From: a filamentous cyanobacterium CCT1
Lineage (GTDB): Bacteria > Cyanobacteriota > Cyanobacteriia > Phormidesmidales > Phormidesmidaceae
NCBI GenBank assembly: GCA_003017855.1
Contig: PYER01000008.1
Location: forward strand, 1-55,001
Direction: 5' to 3'
Length of the DNA: 55,001 nt
Below are positions 21-37,990 of this stretch, piece by piece (within the stretch, counting starts at the first letter, position 1; each line of letters begins with the position of its first letter). The translations under genes were made by a program, and so were the position numbers. The notes under the pieces were generated by a model. That model had not been told where the DNA came from, ran no database searches, and saw only the letters and a list, made by a program, of their open reading frames with translations.

Positions 21-54
21 AAGAGCCGGTGGCATTTGCTGCCGGTTCTTTTTG
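21..54 (+). terminator. Rho-independent terminator
   Basis: A GC-rich hairpin (AGAGCCGG arm pairing with CCGGTTCT, one G-T pair) is followed directly by a T-run. It would end a plus-strand transcript entering from the left of the window. The next 220 bases up to position 275 hold no gene that I can support. Confidence 0.7.
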
Positions 55-275
55 CGTATTAAGGGTCTGGTCAGGACACTTAACACTGATTTCCGCGATC
101 GCCAGGTGGTCAGCCCAGCGGGGCGTCAATCATTGCCGGATCATAGTACAGGTGTCTAAACCGGGCAAGCCGACTCTAGATATTTGATTTCATCAGGTTT
201 TTGGGGTGGTATCGGTCTCCTTACGTGCAGCAAAAGACTGTAGTTACCGCTCGATCAGCGGTAGTTGCCAGGGCT

Positions 276-545
276 CTAGACCAGCGTCGCGGAGTTGCTG
301 GATCTGAACGCGCCCTTGTTCGGCGAATCCACTTCAATACTGTCCGGCGTATAAGCCTTACCCCACGAGGCTTTGATACCCATTGAGTCTAAAAACCGTC
401 GGGCGTTAATTTCAGGCTTGCCCACGCTTTCAGCCACCTGGGTTTGGATCATCTGATAGAAGCCATCGGGCATCTGGAAACCATCGACCAACAGCGGGCC
501 AATCGCACCTGTGGCGCGTTTAGCTTTGTCGCCGGTAGTGCTCAC
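276..545 (-). CDS. Small hypothetical protein, second gene of RHH pair
   Basis: An 89-residue protein with no recognised family. It starts with GTG inside the stop of the upstream ribbon-helix-helix gene (4-base GTGA overlap), so the two are probably translationally coupled. The middle is rich in charged residues (VGKPEINARRFLDSMGIKAS) and there is no membrane segment or signal peptide. The C-terminal tail is Ser/Asn-rich and could be a frame-shifted end. Coupling to a DNA-binding protein suggests a role in plasmid control or in regulating the divergent operon at 924; that is inference. Confidence 0.5.
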   Translation of the reverse strand: MSTTGDKAKRATGAIGPLLVDGFQMPDGFYQMIQTQVAESVGKPEINARRFLDSMGIKASWGKAYTPDSIEVDSPNKGAFRSSNSATLV

Positions 546-739
546 TTGCTGCCCTCTCCTGACTGGGCATCGCCATGCTCCCTCACAGCTTTTGCCGCTA
601 GATAGACAAGCAAGTTAGGTATGGTGCGCTGCTCTGATGCGGCCAGCGCCTCAACTTGTGCATAAAGCTCATCTTCAAAAGTGACAGTAGTTCGCTTAAC
701 CATGTCCTGCGGTGCCGTGGGATCTCCAATGCCCATCAT
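542..739 (-). CDS. CopG-like ribbon-helix-helix DNA-binding protein
   Basis: A short protein (about 65 residues) containing MVKRTTVTFEDELYAQVEAL followed by a second helix, the pattern of a ribbon-helix-helix (CopG/Arc/MetJ) fold: one beta strand (TTVTF) and two helices. Such proteins bind operators as dimers and control plasmid copy number, partition or transfer genes. I chose the ATG at 739 because AGGA lies 6-8 bases upstream; the frame stays open to 910, but that extension is not RHH-like. The inner ATG at 703 has its GGA too close. The gene is divergent from the operon beginning at 924, so it may repress both directions across 740-923. Confidence 0.65.
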   Translation of the reverse strand: MMGIGDPTAPQDMVKRTTVTFEDELYAQVEALAASEQRTIPNLLVYLAAKAVREHGDAQSGEGSK

Positions 740-923
740 CTTATTCCTACTTAAGGGTTTCAGCTTACAACTATGCAATATTAGCTCAATTGATGCCGTT
801 TTATGCCGATTCATGCTAACACTGTAACTATCCGTGGAACGTGACTGGAACGAATCAGTTCCACTGAACCGCCTAAAGCATTGATTTACCGAAGTTTCGA
901 GCTGTAACAAGAGGTGTAACGAC

Positions 924-1442
924 GTGGAACGTCAATCACTATCGATTCGCAAGTTTGCCGAGGTCTGTGGGGTGTCCCACACCGAAATAGGCCGCAAGAT
1001 GACCGCCCTGGGTATCTCAGGAACTCCCCAAGGCAAGGGTTTACCCACATTGCTGAGTCCGACTGAGCAAGACAGCATCGCTAAAACCCTGTTTATCCCT
1101 GATAAACCGCCCGCCGCGCCTGCACAACACGTCGAGGTTCTGGGCAATGGTTTATCGGTTTACACGCCGCCGCCGTTGGCAACTCGGGGCGTCAACAGCG
1201 AGCTGAGCCGCCACATTCAGCAGCAACAGCTCACCCAGGCGCTGGGCGCGTTTAAGGGCAATCAGGCCAGCTTTAGAAACGCTCTGTTGGGCATGGCCGC
1301 TGAGTCGGGTCGCCAACTGGGCCACGAAATGGCCGTTACCGAGATGAACTCCGCCCTGGCCACCCACGCGCAACTCCAACAAACCATGGGAAAGGAGTTG
1401 GGCGTCGTTGCGGATACGCCCGATACCGCTGCTGCTGGTTAG
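924..1442 (+). CDS. HTH-domain hypothetical protein, first gene of transfer-like operon
   Basis: A 172-residue protein starting at GTG 924 with GAGGTG just upstream. Residues about 5-45 (SLSIRKFAEVCGVSHTEIGR) look like a helix-turn-helix of the type found in phage or plasmid DNA-binding proteins. The remainder is predicted alpha-helical, Gln/Ala-rich, without a membrane segment (QQQQLTQALGAFKGNQASFR). It opens a run of five tightly spaced plus-strand genes up to 5504. Possible roles are DNA recognition for the adjacent ATPase or operon autoregulation; neither is shown by the sequence. Confidence 0.6.
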   Translation: MERQSLSIRKFAEVCGVSHTEIGRKMTALGISGTPQGKGLPTLLSPTEQDSIAKTLFIPDKPPAAPAQHVEVLGNGLSVYTPPPLATRGVNSELSRHIQQQQLTQALGAFKGNQASFRNALLGMAAESGRQLGHEMAVTEMNSALATHAQLQQTMGKELGVVADTPDTAAAG

Positions 1443-1505
1443 GGGGTTTAGCCCTGTTAACCGCCGTTTTCATCCTGTTAACGCCGTAACTCTGGTCATA
1501 ACGCC

Positions 1506-2168
1506 ATGGAAGCTAAATTCACTCCCCCTGCCGTCCCCCTCGAATACCGTCGCGAGGTCGTTAGCGGTGCATCGCCTATCCAAAACATCTACCTAACTCC
1601 CGTTCCCTGGTGGCAAAACCGCCGTTACTGGGCTGCTGGTGGCATCGCGGTGGCTGCCCTCTCTGGCATTGCCTTCGCCTTTGCACAGTCTGGCCGTACT
1701 GGCGACGAGGGCACCTATCAGAGCGAACTGCCCGCCCCTAACTACGAGAACGTGCTGGCGGCGGCTCAAGACCGGCTCTCGGGCAACTACGAAGACAGTC
1801 GTTTGGTGCTGGCCGATGTCGGTCGGTCGGTGCTCAACAATGAGGCCTATCGCTACCGCCAGCAGGCGGAGCAGGACGTTCTAAAGCCCACTGACCCCTG
1901 TTACCAACAGCAGATCATTTGCCCCCTCAACCGTTACCAGCGAGATGCCCAGGTGATGTTAGATGCCGCTAAGGGCGATCGCGATTGGCGACAGGCTAAT
2001 GCGGCGCTCTTTAGAGTCGAAGCCGTGGAGGTGGCGCGATCGATGGCGGCGCTGCCCCAAGACCCGCCGACCAACTTGGCCGTGGTGGCCATTGAAAACT
2101 TGGTTCAGTACCACGACCGCCAACACTCTTTGTCTGAAGAGGTGCAGGCCCATGAAGTTAGAGACTAA
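1506..2168 (+). CDS. Single-pass membrane hypothetical protein
   Basis: A 220-residue protein with an N-terminal cytoplasmic stretch of about 40 residues, one hydrophobic segment near residues 42-62 (AAGGIAVAALSGIAFAFAQ) and a large soluble helical region containing a CYQQQIIC pair of cysteines, possibly a disulfide outside the membrane. The ATG at 1506 follows a 64-base gap with near-repeats of CCTGTTAACNGCCG (1453-1486). The 3' end overlaps the next gene by 17 bases. I do not recognise the family; context suggests a component of an envelope-spanning assembly. Confidence 0.6.
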   Translation: MEAKFTPPAVPLEYRREVVSGASPIQNIYLTPVPWWQNRRYWAAGGIAVAALSGIAFAFAQSGRTGDEGTYQSELPAPNYENVLAAAQDRLSGNYEDSRLVLADVGRSVLNNEAYRYRQQAEQDVLKPTDPCYQQQIICPLNRYQRDAQVMLDAAKGDRDWRQANAALFRVEAVEVARSMAALPQDPPTNLAVVAIENLVQYHDRQHSLSEEVQAHEVRD

Positions 2169-3420
2169 TCATTTGCTCTATGGCTCCATTGGTGCCGCTG
2201 CCCTGGGGCTGTTCTGTGGTCTGCAACGGCCTGCTAGCAACCTTACTCCGGCTGACCTAGAGGCCTTCGCCAATGGGGCTCAGATTCGCTACGAGAAAAC
2301 CTATCCCTATCTGCCTGCGGCGATTGCGTTTGGGCTGGTGTCTGTGGGCTGCGGGGTGGCTTGGGCGCTGGGGGGAGAGCAACCTAAGGTGGCGATTGCA
2401 GGCCCCCAGATCGCGCCAGAACCCCAGAGCTGGAACGGGCAGGTGCCCTTTGCTGGGGCGACTGAGTCCTTTCGGGTGGGCAACCCTGCCGCTATTCTCG
2501 CCGCTCGTATGCGGCCCACGCTGATTTCAGCCAATCCTCGGGTCGGCAAGGGGCTCACGGTGGCCCACGCCTACCGGCAGGCCCAGGTGAAGCAGGGCGC
2601 GGTGGTGTGGGTGATTCAGCCTAAGTACCACCCAAAGGAGCATGGCTACTGGGAACAGGCTGACAACGTGCTCGGGTTCATGGCTGATTCGCTGGAGTCC
2701 AAAGAGGATATCGACGACATCTGCGAGCAGATGCAGAAATTCATCTTTGCCTGGCGGCAGCTGCCCCAGCGGCCCAAGGTGCTGATCATCGACGAGCTGG
2801 CGATGATGAAGACGGCTTTCAAGACCTGGTACGAGGGATTCCTGAAGTCGCAGCTCACGATGGAGCTGTCCTCGGGGGAGACGGATGACCGGGCGCTGTG
2901 GGCGATCACTCAGTCGTCACTGGTGGGCGATATCGGGGTCAGCGGCGGGATGCGGGCGACGTTTGATTTGCTCACTATTCAGACCCCCAGCAGTCAGAGC
3001 CATTTGGAGAGCCTGCGCAAGTCCGACACCAGCATTCCGCCGATTGAGGATGAGGTGATTTTTGAGCGCTCGTTCTCGCCGAAGCAGGCGGTCTTTTATC
3101 ACTCAGAGATCAAGGAATGGCTGCCGATGGTGGCCTATGAAGTGCCGAAACTGAGTTACGCCCCTGCAACGGCGGGTGCAACGGACGGAAACGAAGACGG
3201 GGTAAGGCTTTCACCGCTGGGTGAAACGAAAGTTTCCAAGTTTCCAGACCCCTCTTTAGCCCCAGATCTGCCCCTGATAATCGCGGTAACCAACGCTTTA
3301 GCCCAGGGGATGCCCCGCTCCCAAGTCATCAAAGAGGTGTTGGGTTGCACCGGCAAGAAGTACCAGGAGGGCTCCGATTTGTTCGACCGCATCAAATCCA
3401 TCATTGAGGAAAATTCCTAA
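2152..3420 (+). CDS. Membrane-anchored P-loop ATPase, coupling-protein-like
   Basis: A 422-residue protein. Two hydrophobic segments near residues 8-26 and 50-72 anchor it. A phosphate-binding loop follows (SANPRVGKGLTVAHAYRQ, about residues 125-142), and a Walker B strand VLIIDELAMM lies about 80 residues later. N-terminal membrane pair plus cytosolic ATPase is the layout of VirD4/TraG/FtsK-type pumps, but the loop is atypical (GKG rather than GKT/S) and the protein is shorter than most coupling proteins. The frame is open from 1963; the ATG at 2152 is preferred because it carries GAGGTG upstream and removes an Arg/Trp-rich non-native extension. It overlaps the next gene by one base (TAATG). 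I infer DNA- or protein-pumping in transfer. Confidence 0.6.
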   Translation: MKLETNHLLYGSIGAAALGLFCGLQRPASNLTPADLEAFANGAQIRYEKTYPYLPAAIAFGLVSVGCGVAWALGGEQPKVAIAGPQIAPEPQSWNGQVPFAGATESFRVGNPAAILAARMRPTLISANPRVGKGLTVAHAYRQAQVKQGAVVWVIQPKYHPKEHGYWEQADNVLGFMADSLESKEDIDDICEQMQKFIFAWRQLPQRPKVLIIDELAMMKTAFKTWYEGFLKSQLTMELSSGETDDRALWAITQSSLVGDIGVSGGMRATFDLLTIQTPSSQSHLESLRKSDTSIPPIEDEVIFERSFSPKQAVFYHSEIKEWLPMVAYEVPKLSYAPATAGATDGNEDGVRLSPLGETKVSKFPDPSLAPDLPLIIAVTNALAQGMPRSQVIKEVLGCTGKKYQEGSDLFDRIKSIIEENS

Positions 3421-3968
3421 TGGCTAGCTCTAAGAACAATCAACTTGCCAACGGCAACAATGGCCCTGAGATCATCGACGGGCAAATCATCGACATCACG
3501 CCTCAGTTCAGCTCGCCGGGACGGGGCAGCAGTGTCCAGCTCGCGCCACGCAATGCCATGCGCTCTAACGTGCAGGATGGCGGCTGGTTCGATGCCACCA
3601 GCGGCAAGCGCAAGCCCATCTTTGTCATCACGCCCACGACCGATCCATGGAGCATTTTTCCGGTGATTCGCAGCGGCCTCAGCTGCTTGCGAAACCACCC
3701 GTTACAAACGATGGGTGGAGCCTTCATCAGCGTATGGGGTGGGCTGTTTGTGCTCTCGGCGGGGCTGAATGTCCTCCAGGGTTCGGCGGTCAAAGCCGGG
3801 GGCGACATCTGGAATCCGGTGGTGGCGGGGACTAACTTTGGGGCGATGTTGGTGGTGCCGACTCAGAGCATCGCGGGCAGCGCTCACAAGGTCTTGACCG
3901 GGGAGGAGCGGGTGGGACAGCCAATTGAAACCCGTCCCTACACTCGCGCTGTGAAGGTCGGGGAGTAG
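3420..3968 (+). CDS. Membrane hypothetical protein of transfer-like operon
   Basis: A 182-residue protein whose ATG uses the last A of the preceding TAA stop. The first 90 residues are polar; a hydrophobic segment at about 100-122 (GGAFISVWGGLFVLSAGLNV) and a weaker one at about 132-150 suggest one or two membrane passes near the C-terminus. No family recognised. Direct translational coupling to the ATPase gene argues for a stoichiometric partner. Confidence 0.55.
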   Translation: MASSKNNQLANGNNGPEIIDGQIIDITPQFSSPGRGSSVQLAPRNAMRSNVQDGGWFDATSGKRKPIFVITPTTDPWSIFPVIRSGLSCLRNHPLQTMGGAFISVWGGLFVLSAGLNVLQGSAVKAGGDIWNPVVAGTNFGAMLVVPTQSIAGSAHKVLTGEERVGQPIETRPYTRAVKVGE

Positions 3969-3970
3969 CG

Positions 3971-4393
3971 ATGCTGTTCTGGCAAATCAGAACCCGGTAC
4001 CTGCTGGCCCTGGCGGCGTTGTTCGTCGGGGCCGCGTTTTTAGACCTGAAGCAGCCGGGCCGGGGGCAGTTCTACAACCCGGTCTATGGGGTGAGGTCTT
4101 GGGTCAATACCCACCAGCCTGCGGCGTGGCAGCTAGTGCATCGCCTTTCTGGCGAGGATGCCCGCCTACAAGCCTGCATGGCGGTGGCTCCTGACCCGGT
4201 TGTCCTCGATGCTACCAAGGCCGAGCTGCGCAAGGCGCTGGTGGGGGAGTCGGAGGCGATCGCCCTGGAGTGGCTGGGTCAGCCTGCCTGCGCCCTAGGT
4301 AACGGGGTCTATCGCTGGGCCTTAGACAACGGCCTGGCCCTCGATGTGACGGTGTCGGAGGGGGAGGTGACCCACAGTGAACTCAACCGTTAA
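3971..4393 (+). CDS. N-terminally anchored hypothetical protein
   Basis: A 140-residue protein with an N-terminal hydrophobic helix (YLLALAALFVGAAFLDL, residues 9-25) that could be a signal anchor, then a soluble region with two cysteines (LQACMAV and QPACALG) that could pair outside the cytoplasm. The tail GNGVYRWALDNGLALDVTV looks like a small beta domain. It begins 2 bases after the previous stop and overlaps the next gene by 17 bases. No family recognised. Confidence 0.55.
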   Translation: MLFWQIRTRYLLALAALFVGAAFLDLKQPGRGQFYNPVYGVRSWVNTHQPAAWQLVHRLSGEDARLQACMAVAPDPVVLDATKAELRKALVGESEAIALEWLGQPACALGNGVYRWALDNGLALDVTVSEGEVTHSELNR

Positions 4394-5504
4394 GGACATC
4401 AAGCCCCACTGGTCGGAGTTGCCGCCGACCTGGCGCTACGTGATTAGCACGGCGATGCAGGCGGGCGAGCTGGTGCTTAAGCTGGGCTGCGTGGGGGCGA
4501 TCGCCATCTCGACTTGGGTGATGGTCGATAAAGAAACCAACGAAACTTGGGGCGATCGCTTTAGGAAAGTCAGCGCTGTGGCGGAGGCAGTAGTTGGGTT
4601 TTACGACGATGACTTCAAGGCCCTGATCAGCAAGGGCGATGTGATTGCAGGCTACACCGTCAACTCGGGCTTTGGCCTACGGATGCATCCCATCCATCAG
4701 GAGATGCGGATGCACTCGGGTATTGATTTGCCGACGCCGGAGGGGGTGTCGGTTCATGCGATCGGCTATGCGGGCGATCGGGTGTCGGTGCGCTGCTGGA
4801 GCGACCCCAAGGGCTATGGCACGGTGGCGGATATGACCAGTTCGGCGTTCCCTGAGATCACCTTCAGGGCAGCTCACCTATCCCACTGCAAGGGGGGTGA
4901 GCATAGGGCCGGGGCAGTGGTGGCGAAGACCGGTAACACGGGCGGCAGCACGGGCGCTCACTTGCACTGGGAGCAGTTGCAGGGGGGCGTGGCCCAGGCT
5001 CCGCAAAAGGGTTACTTGGTCTGGGCGCTCAATGGCCGCAAGCCCAATGAGCGGTTGGGGGATACGATCGCCCTCTACCAGGCGATCGTCATTAAGGAGT
5101 CGGGTGGTGACCACAGGGCCGTCAACCCTGACACCGGGGCGCTGGGTCTGGGGCAGGTGATGCCGCAGAATCTCAACTGTTCCTGGGACGGCAAGCCGAA
5201 GAGCAACTGTGGCTGGGATTACGATGTGCTGGGCCGCGATGTGTCGCCCCAGGAGTTTTTGCAGAACCCTGAGATTCAGCAGCAGATCGTGGGGGTCAAG
5301 CTGGAGAGTGCTCTCCAGCGGCAAATTCAGGCGGGCCACGATATGAATACTGCTGTTAAGCGGGTGGCGGCGGAGTGGTACTCAGGCAATCCTGAGCTGG
5401 CCCACGATACGCGCCCCCAGGCGGGCTATGAGTCCATCAAGAGCTATGCCGACAGTGCGGCAGAGAAGTTTCACCGGCTCCGACAGGAGAACCTGGAAAA
5501 GTAG
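4377..5504 (+). CDS. Fused M23 endopeptidase and SLT lytic transglycosylase
   Basis: A 375-residue bifunctional peptidoglycan hydrolase. After a membrane segment at about residues 33-50, a LytM/M23 metallopeptidase domain spans about 88-205: GFGLRMHPI (98-106), HSGIDL giving zinc ligands H113 and D117, and GAHLHWE with H195/H197. A goose-type/SLT transglycosylase domain follows from about 232: catalytic E241 in VIKESGG, then GALGLGQVMPQN (254-265). M23 enzymes cut peptide cross-links and SLT enzymes cut glycan strands; together they would open a local gap in the wall, the role of VirB1-like enzymes in conjugation. GTG start at 4377 overlaps the previous gene by 17 bases. Last gene of the operon, with a terminator hairpin at 5585-5606. 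Confidence 0.85.
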   Translation: MNSTVKDIKPHWSELPPTWRYVISTAMQAGELVLKLGCVGAIAISTWVMVDKETNETWGDRFRKVSAVAEAVVGFYDDDFKALISKGDVIAGYTVNSGFGLRMHPIHQEMRMHSGIDLPTPEGVSVHAIGYAGDRVSVRCWSDPKGYGTVADMTSSAFPEITFRAAHLSHCKGGEHRAGAVVAKTGNTGGSTGAHLHWEQLQGGVAQAPQKGYLVWALNGRKPNERLGDTIALYQAIVIKESGGDHRAVNPDTGALGLGQVMPQNLNCSWDGKPKSNCGWDYDVLGRDVSPQEFLQNPEIQQQIVGVKLESALQRQIQAGHDMNTAVKRVAAEWYSGNPELAHDTRPQAGYESIKSYADSAAEKFHRLRQENLEK

Positions 5505-5516
5505 GCTCTCGCCGAA

Positions 5517-5613
5517 GATGGTGCCCTTGTCGGTGGGGGCGGTAGCAGGGGTAAGCTGTTTGGCGTAAATGGAATTTCACCTCTGCCCCTAGCGGTCGCT
5601 GGGGGCATTTTGT
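5517..5613 (+). repeat. Terminator-bearing repeat, copy 1
   Basis: About 95 bases lying just after the M23-SLT gene are roughly 80% alike to 13217-13312 (shared blocks TGCCCTTGTC, GGTAGCAGGGGTA, CTGCCCCTAGCG). The 3' end contains an inverted repeat GCCCCTAGCG/CGCTGGGGGC followed by ATTTTGTT, which would serve as the operon terminator. Confidence 0.7.
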
Positions 5614-6117
5614 TGGTTGTTGCCGTCGCAGCCCCACCCTCACAACCCATCAAATGGGCTTTGGGCGGTGGGGCAATGGCAGAGGGCCTATTGCGATCAT
5701 CCTGTCCCCGAAAATCACTAAAACGCTTAGTAGGTGGAGTTTAGGGGCATTTCATCCCGCCAGGGCTGGCGTAATGTCTGTACGGTTCGGAAGCGTAGCC
5801 CTCTTAGGGCGTAGCTCCCCCCATCGCTAGGGCTACTGCGCCATTCAACGCTCGGTGTCGCCTCATGACGTCCCATGTCGCCCAGGGAGGCAGAGGCAGA
5901 GAGCCCTGGCGGGGAAAAGCGGTAAGTGGCGGTTAAGTGGCGGTAACTGGCGTCAAAACGACCCAAAAAACACACACCACGGGGCAGCGGTGCCTATAGG
6001 GCTCGGTGTTGGTGCCTCTAGGCTCTCACCGCTGTTAGAGCGATGGTGCCCTGCATGGAAGGTGCGATCGCAGTCGTTATACTGACTCGGAGTGGATGCT
6101 GCTATTAAACGAAACCG
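5614..6117. other. Intergenic region with short tandem repeats
   Basis: No gene is supported here. Two perfect 11-base tandem copies of TAAGTGGCGGT (5923-5933 and 5934-5944) are followed by a partial third, AACTGGCGTC. The surrounding DNA is rich in short self-complementary words (GTAGCCCT/AGGGC near 5795-5850, GGTGCCT twice at 5990-6025). This could be a small control region or part of an origin; nothing decides it. A weak -10-like TATACT sits at 6078-6083, about 35 bases before the next gene. Confidence 0.35.
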
Positions 6118-6324
6118 ATGGATTTCCACGACGCCTTTAAGGAAACATTGAGCCGATTCGATCTCGATGTTGTTGATTTAGCCAGTGCCACTGGTTTGTC
6201 TGTTATGCGGATAGGGCAGTTCAAGAATGGCCAAAATATAAGGATAGATAACCTGCAAAGATTATTGGAAGCAATGCCCCCAGAAGCCAAGAAGTTTATG
6301 CTCTTACTTGTCGCCGAAGGATAG
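6118..6324 (+). CDS. Small XRE-like helix-turn-helix protein
   Basis: A 68-residue protein made almost entirely of a lambda-repressor-type HTH: LDVVDLASATGLSVMRIGQF, then QNIRIDNLQRLLEAMPPEA, the usual order of helices 2-4 and the conserved dimer/packing helix. It probably binds DNA as a dimer. It stands alone between two non-coding stretches, so the target is unknown. A hairpin-forming stretch (TGCCCC to GGGGCA, 6342-6375) follows without a clear T-run. Confidence 0.6.
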   Translation: MDFHDAFKETLSRFDLDVVDLASATGLSVMRIGQFKNGQNIRIDNLQRLLEAMPPEAKKFMLLLVAEG

Positions 6325-6463
6325 AGCCATCCTTCCACAGTGCCCCCCGGTGAGACCGGGTTGTCTGGGGCAGCACCGAGGGATAATTTTGGATAGGTCG
6401 CCAATGCTGCACCCCTCGTCGGTGCGATCAGCTATGGGCTGAGGGCAGAGAATGGGCACCGGC

Positions 6464-6485
6464 TAGTTGCGCCGGGAGGCAACTA
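6464..6485. repeat. TAGTTGC palindrome, solo copy
   Basis: A 22-base imperfect palindrome with arms TAGTTGC and GCAACTA around a GC-rich centre. It matches the terminus of the interspersed repeats at 10951, 30857 and 40137. No longer homology could be followed on either side. Confidence 0.6.
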
Positions 6486-6591
6486 TTCAAACTTTGCTTG
6501 GGAGAACCGGAACTACTGACGGTGGGCTATGAGATCGAGTAGGCGCTCCAGACGCGAAGGGCTCCTGATTTAGACGCCACTCTGGCCACCT

Positions 6592-9500
6592 TTACCGATC
6601 TTGACTAAAAGAATAGCCTGCCGCCAATAGTGCGGTAGCGGCGGCGGGGTTGAGGGGGCGAGATAGCAACCAGCCTTGACCGAGTTCACAGCCGAGGAGC
6701 TTTAACCACTCCAACTGCTGCTCGGTTTCTATGCCCTCAGCGATCGCCCCGATCTGCAGCTGATCGCTCAGCCCCACAATCGCCTGCACAATTTTGTAGT
6801 TTTTATTGCCGGGCTGCATATTGCTAACAAAGGAGCGGTCAATTTTTAGGTAATCAACCGGCAGGTTGTAGAGGTAGCTCAGCGACGAGTAGCCCGTGCC
6901 AAAGTCATCAATGCTAATGCGAAAGCCCATGGCGCGTAGCTGGTGCAGCAAATCAGTGGTGGTTTCTATATTTTGAACCAGCATGCTCTCAGTAATTTCT
7001 AGAGCCAAAGCCGTAGCGGGCAGTTGAGTTTGGCTGAGAACCTGCTGAATGGTATCAATCAGGTCGGCTTGCAATAAATCTGAGCCTGAGAGATTGATAC
7101 TGATCTTCAGATCATCGGCATGGGGAAACTGTTGTCGCCATGTAGCCATTTGTTCACAGGCGGCCTGCAGCATCCAGCGGCTAATGGGCACAATTAGCCC
7201 GGTTTCCTCCGCGACGGGAATAAAATCATCTGGGGAGATAAACCCTCGGAGGGGGTGTTGCCAGCGAATTAAGGCTTCAAACCCTGTCAGTTTGCGGGTA
7301 TTGAGGTCGATGACGGGCTGGTAGTACGCAATAAATTCTTGCTGGATGATCGCGAGCTGCAGATCATGTTCCAAAGTCAGGCGTTTGACCGCCTGGGTAT
7401 GCATCTCGGCGTCAAAGATTTCGTACTTGGCTCGTCCTTTAGCCTTGGCACGATACATGGCAATATCGGCATCTCGCAACAGATCAGAGACTTCGGTATG
7501 GTCTACGGTGCTCCAAACAATGCCGATGCTGGTGCTCATAAAGAAAGTATGACCCTCAATGGTGATGGTTCCTTCAAAATCTGCCAAGATGCGTTTCGCG
7601 ATCTGCACGACGGCCTGAATATCTGGGACATGCTCTACCAAAATGACAAATTCGTCTCCTCCCAGGCGCGCCACAATATCCGTTGGGCGTGCGATGGCCT
7701 GCAGTTTACGGGCAACGGTGATTAGCAGTTGATCGCCGACCAGGTGCCCTAGGCTATCGTTCACGACTTTGAACTGGTCAAGGTCGAGAAATAAAACGGC
7801 AAAATGATACGTGGGTGACTGCTGCGCTCTCTGAATGGATTTTTCAAGGCGATCGCTTAACAAGCTGCGGTTGGGCAAATCGGTCAAAGAATCGTGGAGG
7901 GCCCTGAAGACTAATTGATCTTCGGCCTGTTTGCGCTTGCTAATATCGAGGACGATCGCGAGAAAAACTGATTGCTCATTGTGTTGGCTCAACTGTAAAT
8001 GCACCTCCACTGGGTAGCAGCTGCCGTCAGATCGCTGATGCATCATTTCAAAATTGATCTTAGGGCTATCCCCTCGCCGCAGTGGGGCGAGCAGCCCGTC
8101 AAAGTCAGCGGCTGATAGTCTAGGTTTAATATGCAATGGGGTCATTTGCTGGAGCTGCTGCAGGGAATATCCCAAATTCTGTAAAGCGCCCTGGTTTACA
8201 TACTCAAACTTGAGCGTGTCACCATTGAAGAGATAAATTTCGTTGAGGCTAGCTTCAAGGACATCGAGTAAGCGGGTGCGTTCAGCTTCGGCTTGTTTGC
8301 GTTCGCTGATATCCCGACAAATACAAAAATGAACCGTTTCATCATTTAGAACGATTCGGTTATAGCTAATTTCCACATCATAGATGGAGCCATCTTTGCG
8401 ACGATGTCGAGTTTCAAAATAGGGGGGCAAGGGCATTGTTCCCTGAAGAACTGCTTGCAACTCTTCAGGGGTCCATTGAGCATCCCAATCCACTAAATTC
8501 AGACTGCCAGTCTCTGCGATTGTATAGCCCAGCATTTGGGCAAAGCCAGCACTGGCCTGCAACACATCGCCTTGGTGATTGAGCAGTACAATCCCGTCGA
8601 TCGAGGTGTTGAATAGGGTTTTACTCAGGAGTAATTCTTGCTCTAGGGCTAGTTCAGCCTGTTTGCGATCGGTGATATCCAAATTCACCCCAGTCATGCG
8701 AAGAGGTTGTCCTTCTGTATCCCGCTGCACTATGGCTTGAGCTTCTATATAGCGGACAGTACTATCGGGCCACAGGACACGAAACTCGGTATTAAAGTCT
8801 TTTTCGCCGCTCAGGACTTGTTCTACTGCCCGGCGAGAGGTGGGCAAATCCTCTGGATGGATACCCGCTTCCCAGGCTTCTAAGGCTTCACTAAAGGCTT
8901 CCGGGTTCAGTCCGTAGAGTTCGTACATGCGGTCGTCCCAGATCAGGCGATCGCTCACGATATTCCAATCCCAAATGCCCATGTTGGCCGCCTTTAGGGC
9001 CAGCCGCAGTCGTTCTTCGCCGATGACTAGCTGCAATTCATTTTGGGCGCGCTCTTGGGCGTTGGCGATGGTTTGGCCTTTAACCTGTAGCAGGCGAATG
9101 ATTTCGCTATCCCAGGTCATGGCCTGGTTGAATGAAGCAAACCCGATAAATCCGGTGATCCTTGATTTTTGCATCAAGGGCACGATCAAAATCGCTTGGA
9201 CATTAAACCGTTGCCAGCTGGCGCAATCGATCGCCGCTGCATCGGGTAAATCGGCCACCCAGGGGGCATGGATGACCTCGCGCTGCTTGAGCGTCGCAAT
9301 ACTCCAAGGAAAGGCCGCAAACGGGATATTTTGGGCTAGCGAGAGCTGTTGCGGGCAATCGGGTTGGCACCATTCATGAGTCATGCTGAGGGTTTGAGCC
9401 GCTTCATCAAATTTGAAGATATAGCTGGTATCGACCCCGGTAATCTCGCCGATGTGCCGTAGGGCATGGTCAATTTCGGCATCGAGTCTGGTGGGGCTAA

Positions 9501-10398
9501 CATCGACAAACCGACTGGTTATTTCGGCAATCAGTTGGGTAACGTCTCGCTGAGCGTTTAATGCCTGCTCGGCGATTTTGCGAGCGCTCACATCCAAAAT
9601 TACGGTGCTCCAAACGACATCGCCGTTGGGCAGGCGAGTGGGTTTACCTGTGCCCTGTAGCCACTTCTGCTGTCCCGAGGGCGTCGTAATCCGCCATTCA
9701 TGATTCCAGGTCTCTAAGGTTCGCGCCGATGCGGCAATAGACGCTTGCATGGCGGGCAGATCTGCAGGTTCAGTTAACGCCCAAATCACGCTGACATCCT
9801 GCTCGGCGATCGCCGCCTCAATTTCCCAAAGCTCATAGCAGCCCAGACTCATGTACGATGCACCATCGGTGCCGTCGGGCCGCAAGATATAGCGAATAAT
9901 GGCACCCGGCACACTCGCCGCCATCTCTCTAAAGTTAGCTTCGCTGGCTTGCAGCGAGGCTTCCACCTGTTTGCGCTCTTCAATTTCGGTGCGCAGGTCT
10001 CGGTTGGCTTGCTCAATGGCGGTGAGTTGAGGAATGTTTAGAGCCTGGGGAATGGAATCCATTAGGGCCAGCGCAGTCCACACCGAGACCAAGGCAGTAA
10101 TGGCTTTCACCCCCCCAGCAGCCCAGTAGTCTGGGTGCCAAATCGTCCAGATCGCCATTAGGTGAGTGGTGCCGCAGGCCAAAATAAAGGCCGCAAAAAG
10201 CCAAAACACTCGGTTAAAGGGGATGTCCTGGCGTTTCGTTGCGAAAACAGTCAAACCAATAGGAATCGAATAGTAGGCGGCGGCGATCAATCCGTCAGAT
10301 ATGACGTGAAGGCGAACTAGGTTTGGTTGCCACAGGTAGCAGTAGCCGTGGGGAACCATCTGGAAGCCGGACGCCATCAGGGCCGTCGCTACATTCAT
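6592..10398 (-). CDS. Ethylene-receptor-like PAS/GAF GGDEF-EAL c-di-GMP enzyme
   Basis: A 1268-residue protein. Residues about 15-115 form a three-helix ethylene-sensor domain: LHVISDGLIAAAYYSIPIGL and FILACGTTHLMAIW. Residues D35, Y42, I45, P46, I72, C75 and H79 match, at a constant offset of 10, the D25/Y32/I35/P36/I62/C65/H69 set that in plant ETR1 binds copper and ethylene. Then come PAS (about 150-275), GAF (290-450), three PAS units (460-840), GGDEF and EAL. The cyclase motif GGDEF (913-917) is intact and preceded by an RPTD inhibitory site; the phosphodiesterase motifs EAL (1041-1043), ITE, DDFGTGYS and AEGIET are all present, so either activity is possible. ATG at 10398 has GAGGGTG upstream. 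Monocistronic as seen. Cyanobacterial ETR homologues control phototaxis in other species; the signal here is inferred. Confidence 0.93.
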   Translation of the reverse strand: MNVATALMASGFQMVPHGYCYLWQPNLVRLHVISDGLIAAAYYSIPIGLTVFATKRQDIPFNRVFWLFAAFILACGTTHLMAIWTIWHPDYWAAGGVKAITALVSVWTALALMDSIPQALNIPQLTAIEQANRDLRTEIEERKQVEASLQASEANFREMAASVPGAIIRYILRPDGTDGASYMSLGCYELWEIEAAIAEQDVSVIWALTEPADLPAMQASIAASARTLETWNHEWRITTPSGQQKWLQGTGKPTRLPNGDVVWSTVILDVSARKIAEQALNAQRDVTQLIAEITSRFVDVSPTRLDAEIDHALRHIGEITGVDTSYIFKFDEAAQTLSMTHEWCQPDCPQQLSLAQNIPFAAFPWSIATLKQREVIHAPWVADLPDAAAIDCASWQRFNVQAILIVPLMQKSRITGFIGFASFNQAMTWDSEIIRLLQVKGQTIANAQERAQNELQLVIGEERLRLALKAANMGIWDWNIVSDRLIWDDRMYELYGLNPEAFSEALEAWEAGIHPEDLPTSRRAVEQVLSGEKDFNTEFRVLWPDSTVRYIEAQAIVQRDTEGQPLRMTGVNLDITDRKQAELALEQELLLSKTLFNTSIDGIVLLNHQGDVLQASAGFAQMLGYTIAETGSLNLVDWDAQWTPEELQAVLQGTMPLPPYFETRHRRKDGSIYDVEISYNRIVLNDETVHFCICRDISERKQAEAERTRLLDVLEASLNEIYLFNGDTLKFEYVNQGALQNLGYSLQQLQQMTPLHIKPRLSAADFDGLLAPLRRGDSPKINFEMMHQRSDGSCYPVEVHLQLSQHNEQSVFLAIVLDISKRKQAEDQLVFRALHDSLTDLPNRSLLSDRLEKSIQRAQQSPTYHFAVLFLDLDQFKVVNDSLGHLVGDQLLITVARKLQAIARPTDIVARLGGDEFVILVEHVPDIQAVVQIAKRILADFEGTITIEGHTFFMSTSIGIVWSTVDHTEVSDLLRDADIAMYRAKAKGRAKYEIFDAEMHTQAVKRLTLEHDLQLAIIQQEFIAYYQPVIDLNTRKLTGFEALIRWQHPLRGFISPDDFIPVAEETGLIVPISRWMLQAACEQMATWRQQFPHADDLKISINLSGSDLLQADLIDTIQQVLSQTQLPATALALEITESMLVQNIETTTDLLHQLRAMGFRISIDDFGTGYSSLSYLYNLPVDYLKIDRSFVSNMQPGNKNYKIVQAIVGLSDQLQIGAIAEGIETEQQLEWLKLLGCELGQGWLLSRPLNPAAATALLAAGYSFSQDR

Positions 10399-10571
10399 CG
10401 GTTCACCCTCTACATAAGAGTCAGAAACATAGTGCTAGGGGTCCAGGGCCAGACCGGCTAGAGGATTCTCAGGTACAGTTTTTGAACCGTATTTTTATCG
10501 TTCTTATACTTAACGATGCCCGTTCTGGCCAGAGATCGCCTGACGCCTCAACACATGATACAAAGCTGAGC

Positions 10572-10760
10572 ATCTTGGTGGTGCAGAAAACTTCTGAAAC
10601 CCTTATGAATAAAGGATTCTCATCGAGACAGTGATCTTGGGGCTTCTCAGGCAAACGAACGAAGGCAATGGGTTCCAGCCGCTGATTTGGCCGTCCAGGT
10701 CATCCAGCATGAGACTCAAAAAAGTTTTCTGCACCACTAAGGGTTTCAGACTCTCAGATA
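10572..10760. mobile_element. Degenerate transposon fragment with inverted modules
   Basis: The module GTGGTGCAGAAAACTT followed by CTGAAACCCTTA occurs at about 10577-10604, and both modules recur in reverse complement at about 10721-10750 in swapped order. Between them the plus frame reads RQTNEGNGFQPLIWPS, which may be a transposase tail. This looks like a decayed insertion sequence end; family not assigned. Confidence 0.4.
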
Positions 10761-10917
10761 ATAGTCACCATCTTGTATTGCCTGAAAGCCTTGCCAGTTG
10801 GGGCTTCACGATATGGGAGACCATGTTTTGTCAGGCAACCAGACTAGGCTCTAGCTTGCAAGCGATACAGAGGGCAATTTTTTGTCCAGAGTATTGCCGT
10901 TCCGTAGCTTTCTGCTG

Positions 10918-11123
10918 AGTAGCCCAAAGTAGCGAAATAGACTGTCTGGTTAGTTGCCCACGCCGCAGAGTAGCACCACAATCTCTCTCGACATCCCTTT
11001 CGTGAAGCGTGCCAAAATTTGTCTAACACTACGTTGGACAATTACCACTCAGCTACGTCAGGGCCTCCTATGAGCATAGGTGCAAGGTAAGCCAGAACGG
11101 CTAGTTGCGCGCGCAGGCAACTA
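10918..11123 (-). repeat. TAGTTGCC interspersed repeat, copy A
   Basis: Core 10951-11123 (173 bases), reverse orientation, starts and ends with TAGTTGCC/GGCAACTA. The 11102-11123 terminus is a 22-base palindrome. Homology to the copies at 30857 and 40137 covers the whole core, including blocks AGGAGGCCCT, GTAGCTGAGTG and ACAAATT. A flank extends to about 10918 and includes the complement of TTCGCTACTTTGGGC, which is also found beside the other copies. Confidence 0.75.
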
Positions 11124-11223
11124 CTCAACCCACCAGCCTTCAGCAGGTTAAGGCCATTAGGCACTCAGATTGATCGATAGTCACCTCAGCTACCTCTCAG
11201 CCGTATCATTCTGCCCGTTCAAA

Positions 11224-11330
11224 GTCGATATGGCGTTGCTGAAATGAGGGATGAACGGATTTATGAGACCTTGCTAGTGCTAGGCTTTCGAAAATAGATT
11301 CATCCCAGGAATCAGCAACGCCGTCGATAT
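11224..11330. mobile_element. 91-bp MITE with 8-bp target duplication
   Basis: Positions 11232-11322 are bounded by 24-base imperfect inverted repeats, each beginning GGCGTTGCTGA and containing GGGATGAA. The element is flanked on both sides by the identical 8 bases GTCGATAT (11224-11231 and 11323-11330), the signature of a target-site duplication. There is no coding capacity, so it must have been moved by a transposase encoded elsewhere. Confidence 0.85.
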
Positions 11331-11475
11331 TTCAGAAAACCAAGTTGGTTGCAGGAGGTCTAACGCGTCAGCTCACTTGCTAGGCCCGTCGACGTTATGA
11401 ATTGTTAGTGCACCACCAGAAGCGCTGGTTGAAAAGCGTGGATTTGATGCCATTCGATGCAGCAGTACCTTACGC

Positions 11476-12657
11476 TTACTGCCGATCGCCCTTCACCGGC
11501 CGCGGCTGTGGCAGGCGGACGGTGAAGGTTGTGCCCGCCTCTGCTGTCGAGGCGACCTCTACCGTGCCTCCATGGGCGACGACGATCTCACGCACGATAT
11601 ATAACCCTAAACCAACACTGCCTGGAACCCGTTGCGCTGTCGATTCTGGCAGGGTGTGGCGCATGAGCGGATCGAAGATTGTTGTTAGCTTATCTGGAGG
11701 GATCGACGGCCCTTCGTTATGTACGCTCAAAACTACGGATGAGTCTTCTGAAGTGAGCGATAGTTCGACTGGCCCCTCGTCTGACCCATGCTGAATTGCG
11801 TTACCCACCAGGTTGGAGACGACTTGGCGGAGTCGGGCCGCATCGCAGTCGCACGTAAGGTTGCCGTCTGAGTGAAAGCGCAGCGTGCGCTGCGGATGGG
11901 CAACGCAAAATTCCTCGAAAACTTGGCGGCAGAGTATTTCTAAATCGACTGGATCGCGCGTCAGCGGCATTCTGCTGCCCAACCCTGTCGAGGCGAAGTC
12001 GAGGAGGTCGCGAATCAACCGTGTGACTGCCTCCGTGTTTGTCTTGATCACTGACAGGGCTCTGGGAGAGTCTGGGTGTTTGCCAGAGGTGCGCGAGATC
12101 AACTGTGCCGCCATGCTGATAGAGTTTAGCGGGCTGCGCAGGTCGTGGCCGAGAATCGCTAGGAACATGCGGCGCGACTGATCGACGCGACGTGTGTAGC
12201 TGCCAACTGCGGCGGCGAGCGATTGATCGATCGACTCGTTGAAGCGAGTAATGTCGTTGACATCGTTGATGTCGAATTGCGGGTGGCTCTCAGTCCACAG
12301 GCGGAGCACGCTGGCGCGCAGGGCACGGTATTCGGAGATGACCTCCATGATGTCGAAGCCCGAGCCCATGCGGGCCACACCGTGCAGTACTGAGGCGTGG
12401 TCGAGCCCATCGCTCTCTTCACCAACAGCGCCGCCAAGGCCTTTGGACTTGCTTGCCTGCTGCGCGAGGCTCTGACCGCTCTGCATATCTCGCACGGCTG
12501 CCCGCAGAATTAACTCAGCATCGTTGCGCAAGGCGAGCTTGGTCATCTTCCCCCCAGGCGCGAGGCTACGCGCAAACGTCTCCCATTCTGAGAGGATCAG
12601 CTCGACGTTCCCGAGAATAAAATCTGCCAGTCGCATCGATTTTTCTGTTGGGAGCAT
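11476..12657 (-). CDS. RsbRD-type sensor histidine kinase
   Basis: A 393-residue soluble histidine kinase. Residues about 8-155 resemble the RsbRD N-terminal sensor domain (WETFARSLAPGGKMTKLALR), a helical globin-like module usually found in stressosome proteins and soluble kinases. A HisKA dimerisation domain follows with phosphoacceptor H171 in ILGHDLRSPLN, and an HATPase domain with N-box NLVGNAIQHG and G-box GSVGLGLYIVREI. No receiver domain and no adjacent response regulator, so the partner is elsewhere. Start is uncertain: ATG 12657 or the in-frame ATG 12636, neither with a clear ribosome site. The sequence style resembles proteobacterial homologues, so transfer is possible. Confidence 0.88.
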   Translation of the reverse strand: MLPTEKSMRLADFILGNVELILSEWETFARSLAPGGKMTKLALRNDAELILRAAVRDMQSGQSLAQQASKSKGLGGAVGEESDGLDHASVLHGVARMGSGFDIMEVISEYRALRASVLRLWTESHPQFDINDVNDITRFNESIDQSLAAAVGSYTRRVDQSRRMFLAILGHDLRSPLNSISMAAQLISRTSGKHPDSPRALSVIKTNTEAVTRLIRDLLDFASTGLGSRMPLTRDPVDLEILCRQVFEEFCVAHPQRTLRFHSDGNLTCDCDAARLRQVVSNLVGNAIQHGSDEGPVELSLTSEDSSVVLSVHNEGPSIPPDKLTTIFDPLMRHTLPESTAQRVPGSVGLGLYIVREIVVAHGGTVEVASTAEAGTTFTVRLPQPRPVKGDRQ

Positions 12658-12945
12658 GTTGGGAATAGAGGCATGATATTCATAGAGTGCTCAAAAAGAT
12701 GCCACCCAGGGTGTTTTGGCTGAGCTTGCTTTAGTGCTCTATTTTAAGCCTTTCGAGATTCTAAAGAGCAAAATAAACTCGCCACCAGCGTCTTTTCTGG
12801 CACAAGCGCTCGATTGCTAGCGCAGTCAGCACCAATAGGAGTACTTCCTGGGAAATCCACCGTTCGGTTGTGGCTCCTCAATCACAACGAGTGTTATCCC
12901 GTAAACAGAGAAATCAACCTGACGCAGCAGCAAGAAGGGTGGCAA

Positions 12946-13113
12946 ATGGTAATCAACGAATTTCGCATTTTGCTAGACGCCTATATCCAGGCCTCGAATG
13001 ACGGGGACACGAGTACTGCTGAAGCATTGATGAGAGAACTAGATGGCCTAGTCGTGTCATCCCGATACGACCACATGAAGACAGAGAAGGCTATGGGGTT
13101 GACAGTGGGGTAG
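12946..13113 (+). CDS. Short hypothetical protein
   Basis: A 55-residue acidic, helical protein (INEFRILLDAYIQASNDGDT) with ATG at 12946 and AAGGGTGG 5-12 bases upstream. The frame extends back to 12814, but the longer N-terminus is not protein-like. A strong hairpin terminator follows at 13137. No family recognised; the start site and terminator are the main support. Confidence 0.4.
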   Translation: MVINEFRILLDAYIQASNDGDTSTAEALMRELDGLVVSSRYDHMKTEKAMGLTVG

Positions 13114-13136
13114 TGCCTGCCCAGATGCCGAACAAA

Positions 13137-13169
13137 AACCCCCACTGGCACCGTTTGCCAGTGGGGGTT
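13137..13169. terminator. Bidirectional-looking terminator hairpin
   Basis: A perfect 14-base stem AACCCCCACTGGCA/TGCCAGTGGGGGTT with a 5-base loop. On the minus strand it is followed by TTTTTGTT, so it is best placed to end minus-strand transcripts arriving from the hybrid kinase gene at 13475; it may also stop the short gene ending at 13113. Confidence 0.7.
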
Positions 13170-13216
13170 AGTTCTAGGGTGCATCTACGATTCAGGACTT
13201 CTGCCCGTTACTGGCC

Positions 13217-13312
13217 TAGGATGCCCTTGTCAGTGGGGATGGTAGCAGGGGTACGCTGTTTGACGTACATGGAATCTTACATCTGCCCCTAGCGATCGCC
13301 GGGGGCTTTGTT
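13217..13312 (+). repeat. Terminator-bearing repeat, copy 2
   Basis: Second copy of the roughly 95-base element at 5517-5613. Its 3' hairpin (GCCCCTAGCGATCGCCGGGGGC region) is followed by TTTGTTTTG. Nothing else in 13313-13474 could be assigned. Confidence 0.65.
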
Positions 13313-13474
13313 TTGCTTTGTCCTCAGTCGGAAGTCAGGAGATGAGCGACCTTGCTAGCTGCGCGAGCTGGGGACACGCGTGAAGATCGAGAAGCCGGAT
13401 TACTTGGGGTTGGTGAAGGAAATCGAGCTAGTAGAACTAGCCAAGGTGGCACCGCTTGTAGCGAGGCACAATGT

Positions 13475-16400
13475 CTAGGCTCGCTTTGGCTTGAGCAGGG
13501 TTACAATTTCGCCAACAAATCGCTCTGGCTCTAACGGTTTCGTCAAGTGTGTTTGAAAGCCAACTTCAAGGGCTCTTTTTTGGTCAATTTCTACAGCATA
13601 GGCCGTGAGCGCGATCGCCGGCACTGTACCGCCCTGAGCGGGTGGACGCGAGCGAATCTGCTGCATCAGCTTATAGCCATCCATCTCTGGCATGCCAATA
13701 TCACTGACAATCACATCTGGAATCAACTGCTCCAAGGCTTGCAGCGCTTCTAAGCCAGAAGCCGCAGCGGTTACCGTTGCCCCGTATTGCTCTAGCAGAA
13801 AAATCTGAAACTCGCGGGTATCAGTATCATCATCAACGAGCAAGATTTGAACGTTGTCTAGGAGCGTTTCTGAGTTGAGTTGAGGCTGGGTTGAGTGAGA
13901 GAGAACAGGTGTTGGTTGATTCAGAACCGGTAGCTGCACGATAAAGGTTGCACCTTGATGTTCGCCGCTGCTCTTTACGGTGACCGTACCACCGTGGAGT
14001 TCTACGATTTGCCGCACGATGGCTAGACCTAAACCCAAACCGCCAAATTTACGGGTGGTGGAACCATCTTCTTGCCGAAAATACTCAAACACATAGGGGA
14101 TGAATTGAGCATTGATGCCAATGCCTGTATCCGTTACCCGAATCTGCGCCAGTTGCTCCACTTGCCGCAGTTCGACCATCACTTGCCCGCCCTGGGGCGT
14201 GAATTTGACGGCATTGGTCAGCAAGTTCCAAACCACTTGCTGGAGCCGGGCAGCATCGCCAAGGATGGGGGCGATTTGTGCATCGAGGTCAAGTGCAATC
14301 TCAATATTCTTGGCTGCTGCGGCCAACCGCACGGTTTCAACTGCCGCAGAAATCACAAATGCCAAACTGGTGGGAATCGGATTTAGGGTCAGCTTGCCCT
14401 GCATGATCCGCGAGATATCAAGCAAGTCTTCGATCAGTTGGGACTGCAGTTTGGCATTGCGCTCGATCGTTGCAAGTGCTTCGGCTTGGCGGGCTTGGTT
14501 GAATCTGCCGGTTTGCAGCAGTTGTGTCCACCCCAAAATTGGGTTCAGGGGCGATCGCAACTCATGAGACAGCACGGCGAGAAACTCATCCTTGATCCGG
14601 TTGGCGCGTTCTGCTGCTTCTCGTGCCGCTTGTTCTTGTTGTAGCAGTTGCTCTCGCTCCGATTCAGCTTGCTTTTGCTTGGTAACGTCGCGTGAGATTG
14701 CTAACAGTTGTGCGACCTTGCCGGATGCATCTTGGATAGGAGTGACGATGACATCCCACCACCTCAGGTTGCCCTTTGCTGTGGGGCAGCAGCCTTGAAG
14801 TTGGGCAGCATTGCCTGCTTTGGCGGCTACAAACGCTGCCTCTGCGTTTTGGCGATCTTCGTCTTGCCAAAAATCAAGCCATTTGACGTTCGAAACAGAG
14901 GCCGGATCATCAATTTCTAGGAGATCAAAGCCGCCTGCATTCAGGTAGAGGAGTCGTCCCTCTAACGTTAAAACTTTGATGCAGTCCTGACTGCTCTCTA
15001 AAATGCGTTGCTTTAGTTCTTCACTCTCTTGCAAAGCAGCCTCTGCCTGTTTGCGATCGCTAATATCTAGAACTGAGCCAATATACCCCTTAAATTGACC
15101 ATCCACTCCAAACCAAGGAGCGGCGGCATCGATCGCCCAACGATACTCCCCGTCTTTAGATCGCAGTCGATACTCTAACTGAAAGGCTTCATAACGCTCG
15201 TTCGCGGTTAGGAAAATAGCTTTAGATGCTTCAGAGTCCTCTGGATGAACCGCATTCAGCCACCCAAACCCTAAACCTGTTTCTTCAGTTTGACCGGTAA
15301 AGTCATACCAATTTCGGCTGAGATAGGTGCAATAGCCCGTAGAGTCAGTGACCCAAACCATAACAGGGGCATTGTCCGCCATGTTGCGGAATTGCTCCTC
15401 GCTCTCGCGCAGGGTAGTTTCGGCTTGAATTTGAGTCGTGACATTATTGAAATAAACCACAATCCCGTTTGCGGCAGGATAAGTGCGGACTTCATACCAG
15501 CGATCGTGGTCAGGGTAAAATGCGGTCAATGCCTGCGGAACGCGATCGCGCATCGCGCTTCGATAGACGGTTTCAAGTTCGTTACCTATCAGTCCTGGAT
15601 ATTCTTTCCATATATTTTTGCCAATCAAATCACCTGGCGATCGATTGAGCAACGCTTCGCCAGATTGGTTCATGTAAGTAAACTGCCAGTTCTCATCAAG
15701 GGCAAAGAATGCCTCAGCAATGCTTTCGAGAATATTTCGGCTCCGCTCCTCACTCTCCCGTAAGGCGGCTTCAATTTGTTTGCGATCGCTAATATCTTTG
15801 AACACGATTGCCACTTTTCGGTCTTCCGGTTGTCCAGTACGGCAAGCGTAGACATCAAACCAGCGGTTCATCGGTGCAGAACGATTCTCGAAGCGAATCG
15901 GTTCACCTGTTAAAGCAACTTTTCCGTAGGTTGCGATCCAAAAATCTTCTGGATCGTCCACTAACTGACGCGCTGTTTTACCGACGGCTTGTTGCAAGCC
16001 GGTTTGCTGCTCAAACACTGGATTAATTTCTAAGATGCGGTAATCAACGGGCGTGTCGTTCTCGTCAAACAGCGCCTCGACGACGCAAAAGCCCTCGTCG
16101 ATCGACTCAAACAAGGTGCGGTATTTGGCTTCCGACTCACGCAGGGCTGCTTCGGCATAGGCACGTTCAGCGGCTGCCCACGTCTGTTCAGCGGTTTCTT
16201 CAACCAGTTTGACCTCGGTTTCCGTCCACTGACGTGGCGTGGATTGTTGAGCGGCAAGTAGGGCAACAAACTGACTTTTTTTGATCAGCGGCACGTCAAT
16301 GTGGGCAGCGATATCAATCTCGCGGTATTTCTTTTTCTGGGCATCTGTATAGTTGGAGTCGTTGGGAATATCGGTTACGACCTGAGTGCGCCCAGCCTGA

Positions 16401-37988: not shown

Positions 37989-37990
37989 TC

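Follow-up and report, generated by a model that had tools for sequence, protein, structure and literature searches.

Two bacterial ethylene receptors with experimental data, SynEtr1 and AzoEtr1, signal by way of histidine kinases and response regulators (PMC6682694, PMC11819568). In SynEtr1 of Synechocystis (UirS, Slr1212), an N-terminal ethylene-binding-type domain (EBD) is followed by a cyanobacteriochrome that binds bilin and by a histidine kinase that signals to a response regulator (PMC6682694, PMC5812497). AzoEtr1, through which ethylene affects biofilm in Azospirillum brasilense, is a 525-residue PAS-histidine kinase with a response-regulator partner (PMC11819568). AzoEtr1 and SynEtr1 residues 1-130 bind 14C-ethylene when expressed in yeast (PMC11819568, PMC6682694).

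Here we analysed a gene, hereafter the receptor gene, in a 55,001-base stretch of DNA (the window) that is the entire contig PYER01000008.1 of the filamentous cyanobacterium CCT1. Its predicted product resembles SynEtr1 in being a cyanobacterial protein with an N-terminal EBD followed by cytosolic sensor modules, and AzoEtr1 in its seven ETR1-type residues, but it lacks the bilin motif of the former and, unlike either, has the GGDEF-EAL output of an enzyme of cyclic di-GMP (c-di-GMP) turnover. We put at roughly 0.6 the probability that it is a one-component membrane receptor in which a Cu(I)/ethylene input would directly set c-di-GMP, carried as plasmid cargo by a Nodosilinea-type cyanobacterium. 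As far as titles, the starts of abstracts and available passages go, we recognised no fusion of an EBD to GGDEF, diguanylate cyclase or c-di-GMP functions in the literature, the search being confined to open-access papers; such a fusion may already be drawn in a published figure.

Domain architecture of the receptor

The receptor open reading frame (ORF) starts with ATG and encodes 1268 residues with zero internal stops. Its features are as follows.

6592-10398, minus strand: whole receptor gene, ETR1_N-PAS-GAF-PAS-PAS-PAS-GGDEF-EAL (ORF and Pfam; number of PAS domains partly predicted)
10036-10320, minus strand: ETR1_N, the ethylene-binding-type membrane domain, residues 27-121, with the seven ETR1 residues (Pfam, alignment, three hydrophobic regions)
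9058-9486, minus strand: GAF domain, residues 305-447, without bilin-type Cys-His or DxCF (Pfam, motif search)
8683-8943, minus strand: PAS domain, residues 486-572 (Pfam)
8302-8598, minus strand: PAS domain, residues 601-699 (Pfam)
7429-7902, minus strand: GGDEF domain, residues 833-990, with GGDEF at 913-917 and RxxD at 904-907 (Pfam, motif search)
6655-7365, minus strand: EAL domain, residues 1012-1248, with its signature residues kept (Pfam, residue check)

Residues 27-121 matched the Pfam family ETR1_N (PF25487, 'Ethylene receptor 1-like, N-terminal domain') with E=7.5e-41 and a score of 138.8 bits, the curated cut-off being 27; because this score lies so far above the cut-off, we regard the likeness to ETR1 as homology and not chance. 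A preliminary description of this DNA had suggested a profile search of residues 15-115 and an alignment with ETR1, and both bore out what it had observed: the profile placed the region in no other membrane family, and 42 of the 109 aligned residues were identical, with the seven residues paired. All seven (D35, Y42, I45, P46, I72, C75 and H79) were present and, as that description had claimed, stood at one constant offset, +10, from D25, Y32, I35, P36, I62, C65 and H69 of Arabidopsis ETR1, whereas the next-best ungapped offset in the range tried (-20 to +39) matched only 3/7. The alignment used the N-terminal sequence and residue numbering of Arabidopsis ETR1. In ETR1, the seven residues are required for ethylene binding (PMC6682694, PMC11819568). 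Positions 35 and 75 of the receptor carry the same letters and numbers as D35 and C75 of AzoEtr1, in which the D35A and C75A mutants did not rescue biofilm formation, with the authors noting possible confounding in the rescue (PMC11819568). The receptor also has a single N-terminal cysteine (C20), a feature described for cyanobacterial ethylene receptors (PMC6682694).

Three transmembrane helices are predicted at the N-terminus. Hydropathy peaked near residues 44, 67-78 and 101-111 and nowhere else in the protein at that threshold, and an AlphaFold2 model of the domain, built from two sequences only and of low confidence (mean predicted local distance difference test score 62), placed helices at 25-55, 61-85 and 89-120 together with a further long helix. 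A fold search of the PDB with this model returned no E value lower than 0.46, and phmmer of the receptor EBD against PDB sequences found no match up to E 1.

Between this domain and the output, the best Pfam stretches for PAS were 486-572 and 601-699. PAS_3 and PAS_9 each matched two stretches, and the second ones, taken with homologues, suggest extra PAS regions at about 155-275 and 705-820. The GAF and PAS domains that the preliminary description had placed in the fusion were thus recovered, as were its intact GGDEF and EAL domains, both as Pfam domains and by their signature residues. The GGDEF motif (913-917) is accompanied by an I-site-type RxxD (904-907), and the EAL domain retains all of its metal and substrate residues, E1041, N1102, E1134, D1164, D1165, K1185, E1221 and Q1241; the roles of the GGDEF, RxxD and eight EAL residues are established in enzymes of this kind. 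The tandem (about 833-1257) is close in sequence to the solved structures 4rnh (E=3.8e-110) and 5m3c (E=5.1e-109), which we take to be MorA and MucR; they share the GGDEF-EAL tandem with the receptor, but presumably differ from it in their sensor regions. The residue set suggests a bifunctional enzyme, with somewhat better than even odds for at least the phosphodiesterase activity. A Pfam scan of the receptor ORF found neither HisKA nor HATPase, the output being GGDEF plus EAL, and the protein does not appear to belong to the ethylene receptors of the histidine-kinase type.

Related fusions and the origin of the receptor gene

The domain itself is widespread. ETR1_N was found in 40 of 57 relatives and in 161 of 291 genomes sampled from the class, and in none of 14 well-known control genomes. 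The window's own genome holds four ETR1_N genes: the receptor gene, a 724-residue histidine kinase in which one of the seven positions has A instead of P, a 296-residue EBD-GGDEF protein with all seven residues (P0002, on G000:C90; L003:952-1839, minus strand), and a 649-residue EBD-GGDEF-EAL protein with a D-to-N change (G000:C405; L092:2-1948, minus strand).

For a survey of outputs we collected 95 distinct ETR1_N ORFs from 129 matches, dropping identical or contained EBDs, adding L047, L053 and L054 from other searches, and leaving aside two contig-edge fragments (G010:C29 and G010:C4) among 96 listed profile matches. Regular expressions assigned HATPase to 25, GGDEF plus EAL to 16, GGDEF to 16, EAL to 2 and no output to 36, so that 34/95 carried GGDEF and/or EAL by motif. 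Three ORFs without an assigned output (L065, L100 and L054) were scanned with Pfam, and all were histidine kinases; L126, whose motif is a degenerate IGDDEF, and L091, truncated where its contig ends, were also counted there, but they resemble members of the c-di-GMP groups and were labelled accordingly in the trees described below. The full set of seven residues was present in 43 of the 95, which means that these residues mark the family and are nothing unusual in the receptor. By output, the set was complete in 15/16 of the GGDEF-only ORFs, 2/16 with GGDEF plus EAL, 0/2 with EAL only and 26/61 of the others. The two GGDEF plus EAL ORFs were the window receptor and P0003 (from G030). Like the receptor, P0002 and P0003 join ETR1_N with all seven residues to c-di-GMP domains, but they do so by direct fusion, while the receptor has a PAS/GAF relay and is plasmid cargo.

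A genome of the same genus shares an exact stretch of 2001 bases with Nodosilinea sp. FACHB-131, and we therefore take the genus (26 genomes, G000-G025) to include that strain. Short EBD-GGDEF proteins of about 300 residues occur in 15 of these 26, the copy in G022 having a degenerate GGDEF, and the seven ETR1 residues were confirmed in nearly all of them. The same type was found in two further genera of the family, and a class-wide search gave 20 matches spanning both domains (one of them, in G008, with an internal TAG) in 19/291 genomes from several families, a count of domain span that leaves aside the seven-residue status of the new matches. Taken with the motif counts, these matches indicate that direct fusions of an EBD to c-di-GMP domains are recurrent, and the uniqueness implied by the preliminary description was overstated. 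Homologues of the C405 protein (641-673 residues) also occur in the genus and family; they have N in place of D at the site of D25, score weakly against ETR1_N, and are possibly a divergent sensor class.

The closest relatives of the receptor body have other N-termini. A protein on G026:C4 is 70% identical over residues 569-1261 and has no EBD by eye, nor did any ETR1_N match of G026 lie on C4. In the window's own genome, a protein on G000:C257 is 71% identical over 818-1263; its body and PAS/GAF relay resemble those of the receptor (dCache-HAMP-PAS-GAF-PAS-GGDEF-EAL), but it has a dCache sensor and HAMP where the receptor has the ethylene-binding-type domain. A UBA2566 protein, 67% identical in its best segment, has an N-terminus that is not ETR-like by eye, and its neighbours look by eye like groEL and a dehydrogenase. 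As the receptor body is closest to proteins with other sensors, a sensor swap is the simplest account, and the gene probably arose when an ETR1-type sensor was joined to such a GGDEF-EAL body.

The trees of EBDs do not settle where the window EBD came from. In a quick tree it fell among EBDs of the histidine-kinase type, outside both the short EBD-GGDEF clade (16 rows) and the D-to-N clade. In a careful tree the five labels needed 7 changes (the least possible being 4), with a bootstrap that had not settled, and the c-di-GMP group formed one side of a branch in 0% of 200 bootstrap trees. That the c-di-GMP fusions arose independently was considered and set aside: one clade for all 36 c-di-GMP EBD rows was not rejected (approximately unbiased test, p-AU 0.246), so the EBD tree does not show separate origins.

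Candidate inputs of the receptor

In the mechanism that we propose, a three-helix ethylene-binding-type domain would be joined through a helix to a PAS-GAF-PAS-PAS-PAS relay and on to a bifunctional GGDEF-EAL tandem. A receptor dimer would hold Cu(I) at C75/H79; the ligand, a small olefin and most probably ethylene, would bind and shift the helices, and the PAS/GAF relay would alter the balance of c-di-GMP synthesis and breakdown. Judged from its sequence and from the experiments on its relatives AzoEtr1 and SynEtr1, the receptor probably binds copper and ethylene, and we infer that its EBD is coupled to the output. The direction of the effect is a guess: ethylene reduces biofilm through AzoEtr1 and promotes motility through SynEtr1, and by analogy it may lower net c-di-GMP here, a suggestion to which we give somewhat less than an even chance.

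Several observations weigh against this mechanism. Some five other sensor-type domains (one GAF and four PAS, partly predicted) could be the real input, and no neighbouring gene that we saw points to ethylene. Of the 16 GGDEF plus EAL ORFs in the survey, 14 lack the full residue set, and in all 14 the Asp corresponding to D25 is replaced by Asn. No orthologue sharing this domain order came to light: in the matches listed for 57 genomes (11 candidates scored in each), only the window itself covers residues 1-1268, from EBD to EAL, and among the best 5000 plasmid records none had a place covering 80% of the receptor protein. As a lone plasmid gene of differing composition it may be of little use to its host, though its ORF is intact.

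The surplus of PAS/GAF domains, the lack of an ethylene-linked neighbour among the genes seen and the D-to-N paralogues of the genus and family would also fit a different role, in which the ETR1-type domain is an anchor or dimeriser, or senses copper, redox or another olefin, and the PAS/GAF domains carry the real input. Because those paralogues retain GGDEF-EAL, an altered site does not keep the domain from persisting in c-di-GMP enzymes. However, the receptor retains the complete set of seven, with C75, H79 and D35, which an anchor would not need, and we consider this role unlikely, while giving it more weight than the alternatives that follow.

Light was the other input that the preliminary description had thought possible. 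A protein that mainly senses light or redox through GAF/PAS cofactors, like the cyanobacteriochrome half of SynEtr1, would accord with a domain order loosely like that of SynEtr1 and GeiEtr2 (PMC6682694) and with the coupling of light to c-di-GMP by Cph2 and SesA (PMC5812497). Three signs of light sensing were sought in the receptor, namely a bilin motif, a LOV motif and a bilin-binding GAF as best match, and none was found. Residues 300-455 contain neither Cys-His, the feature of bilin attachment in GAF domains, nor DxCF, and the LOV-type NC[RH]F is absent from the protein. The best solved relatives of the GAF domain are sigma-54-dependent regulators (E=0.0022), while miRFP670nano3, which we take to be bilin-binding, scored only E=0.064. 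The receptor thus does not appear to be a cyanobacteriochrome photoreceptor; this part of the preliminary description was not borne out, and a mainly light- or redox-driven protein seems improbable. The observation made in that description is confirmed, while its interpretation is partly supported, and the ethylene-responsive c-di-GMP enzyme remains our preferred reading.

The plasmid and its cargo

Outside the receptor gene, four features define the context.

19522-22974, minus strand: TrwC/MOBF relaxase, plasmid backbone (Pfam and relatives)
23263-24399, plus strand: actin-like (ALP_N) protein of plasmid-segregation type (Pfam; 94-96% identical ORFs in G015:C320 and G004:C25)
51010-51780, minus strand: ParA-type ATPase (Pfam)
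6325-10951, no strand assigned: segment holding the receptor gene, variable cargo (without DNA match in five relaxase-bearing relative contigs; lower G+C content at third codon positions, GC3)

Useful plasmid relatives came from genomes of the same genus, not from PLSDB. The relaxase has matches in 18 of the 26 genus genomes, the best other being 92% (G004:C25). Two relatives, G015:C320 (50,942 bases) and G004:C25 (40,518 bases), have exact terminal overlaps of 127 and 101 bases, as expected of circular replicons assembled from short reads, and we read both as circular. They share blocks with the window that are mostly 88-93% identical, with gaps, the shared backbone in the window being 1-300, 1418 to about 6000, from about 19,200-19,500 to 28,500, and 53,303-55,001; a further block, 51,988-53,148, is only 75% identical to the circular relatives. 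The window itself has no terminal overlap, but in both relatives 38 bases separate its last base from its first, which argues for a circular plasmid of about 55 kb that the window covers almost completely. That the receptor gene is plasmid-borne is well supported.

The mobilisable plasmid context given in the preliminary description fits as well, with a MOBF/TrwC relaxase on a backbone common to circular replicons of the genus. Pfam found no coupling protein or type IV secretion ATPase in 38 of the 54 ORFs of at least 150 residues plus one shorter ORF, where the 16 others overlap scanned ORFs and ORFs without a Pfam match could hide distant relatives. With a relaxase present and these not seen, 'mobilisable' fits the predicted element and 'conjugative' does not.

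The receptor gene is variable plasmid cargo of lower GC. Three segments, 6325-10951 (the receptor), 11232-19124 (other signalling genes) and 31028-49470 (Kdp and others), had no DNA match in the five relaxase-bearing contigs compared, two of which are short or partly covered, and GGDEF, GGEEF, EALIRW, EALVRW and EALLRW occurred in no ORF of at least 180 residues in the three larger relative contigs. The GC3 of the receptor gene, 0.58, is lower than in five backbone genes (0.66-0.77) and in four genes located on other contigs of this genome (0.69-0.78); the values for other cargo genes on the plasmid range over 0.52-0.75.

EBDs on plasmids are not new. By tblastn (1e-5) they were found in 18 of 72,556 PLSDB records, among them large replicons of Azospirillum and plasmids of cyanobacteria, in a search that may have omitted records very close to the window's genome; the two proteins scanned with Pfam (from Pseudanabaena PCC 7367 and Kovacikia) are histidine kinases. 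Megablast against PLSDB covered window positions 1-42000: 57 records matched 18000-42000, and among the 15 matches listed all lay on kdpB, while for 1-18000 the one match was a Leptolyngbya plasmid, covering 5% of the query. The window has no Rfam match at gathering thresholds and no tRNA.

Some other elements of the cargo were seen. A dispersed repeat of about 280 bases lies upstream of the receptor gene at 10952-11231, with partial minus-strand copies at 30854-31027 and 40126-40267. It occurs in 15 of 38 genomes searched, all of the same genus, and is clustered on certain contigs, including plasmid relatives. By eye it has a short conserved core with a small inverted repeat, TAGTTGC...GCAACTA; an automated search for at least 12 bases found none. 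The repeat may bound or mobilise cargo modules. In the cargo block of the receptor, 11476-19009 encodes two kinases, one a histidine kinase and the other a GAF-PAS hybrid kinase (GC3 0.52), as well as a short GGDEF protein; 33430-39948 holds a potassium-transport set of KdpA, KdpB, KdpC and KdpD-Usp, with kdpB also on Picosynechococcus plasmids; and a tyrosine-recombinase (Phage_integrase) ORF at 49687-50256 on the minus strand has distant relatives (30-46% identity) on related plasmids.

That the fusion or its plasmid context is an artefact of assembly or binning, as a draft of 546 contigs with 3.97% contamination, the lower GC3 of the receptor gene and the failure to find a second plasmid with it might suggest, is very improbable given the single unbroken 1268-residue frame with coherent domains, the flanking backbone (to 6001 and from 19125) that matches contigs of several genomes of the genus, and the window ends that adjoin in both circular relatives.

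The receptor is real, lies on a plasmid and belongs to the ETR1-type domain family, and it is less singular than first thought. The recurring wiring of EBDs to c-di-GMP in this lineage is a stronger result than the single plasmid gene, and the short EBD-GGDEF protein of 296 residues is a smaller and more tractable test protein than the plasmid gene. A broader view, which we offer as speculation and think doubtful, is that such wiring is an established signalling layer in relatives of Nodosilinea and other cyanobacteria, undescribed in the literature searched and made up of common short EBD-GGDEF proteins, D-to-N EBD-GGDEF-EAL proteins and larger fusions, and that through the plasmid copy a mobile element would impose an ethylene-responsive switch of motility or biofilm on its host. 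If the receptor EBD binds ethylene, ethylene would be a direct c-di-GMP input within a single protein.

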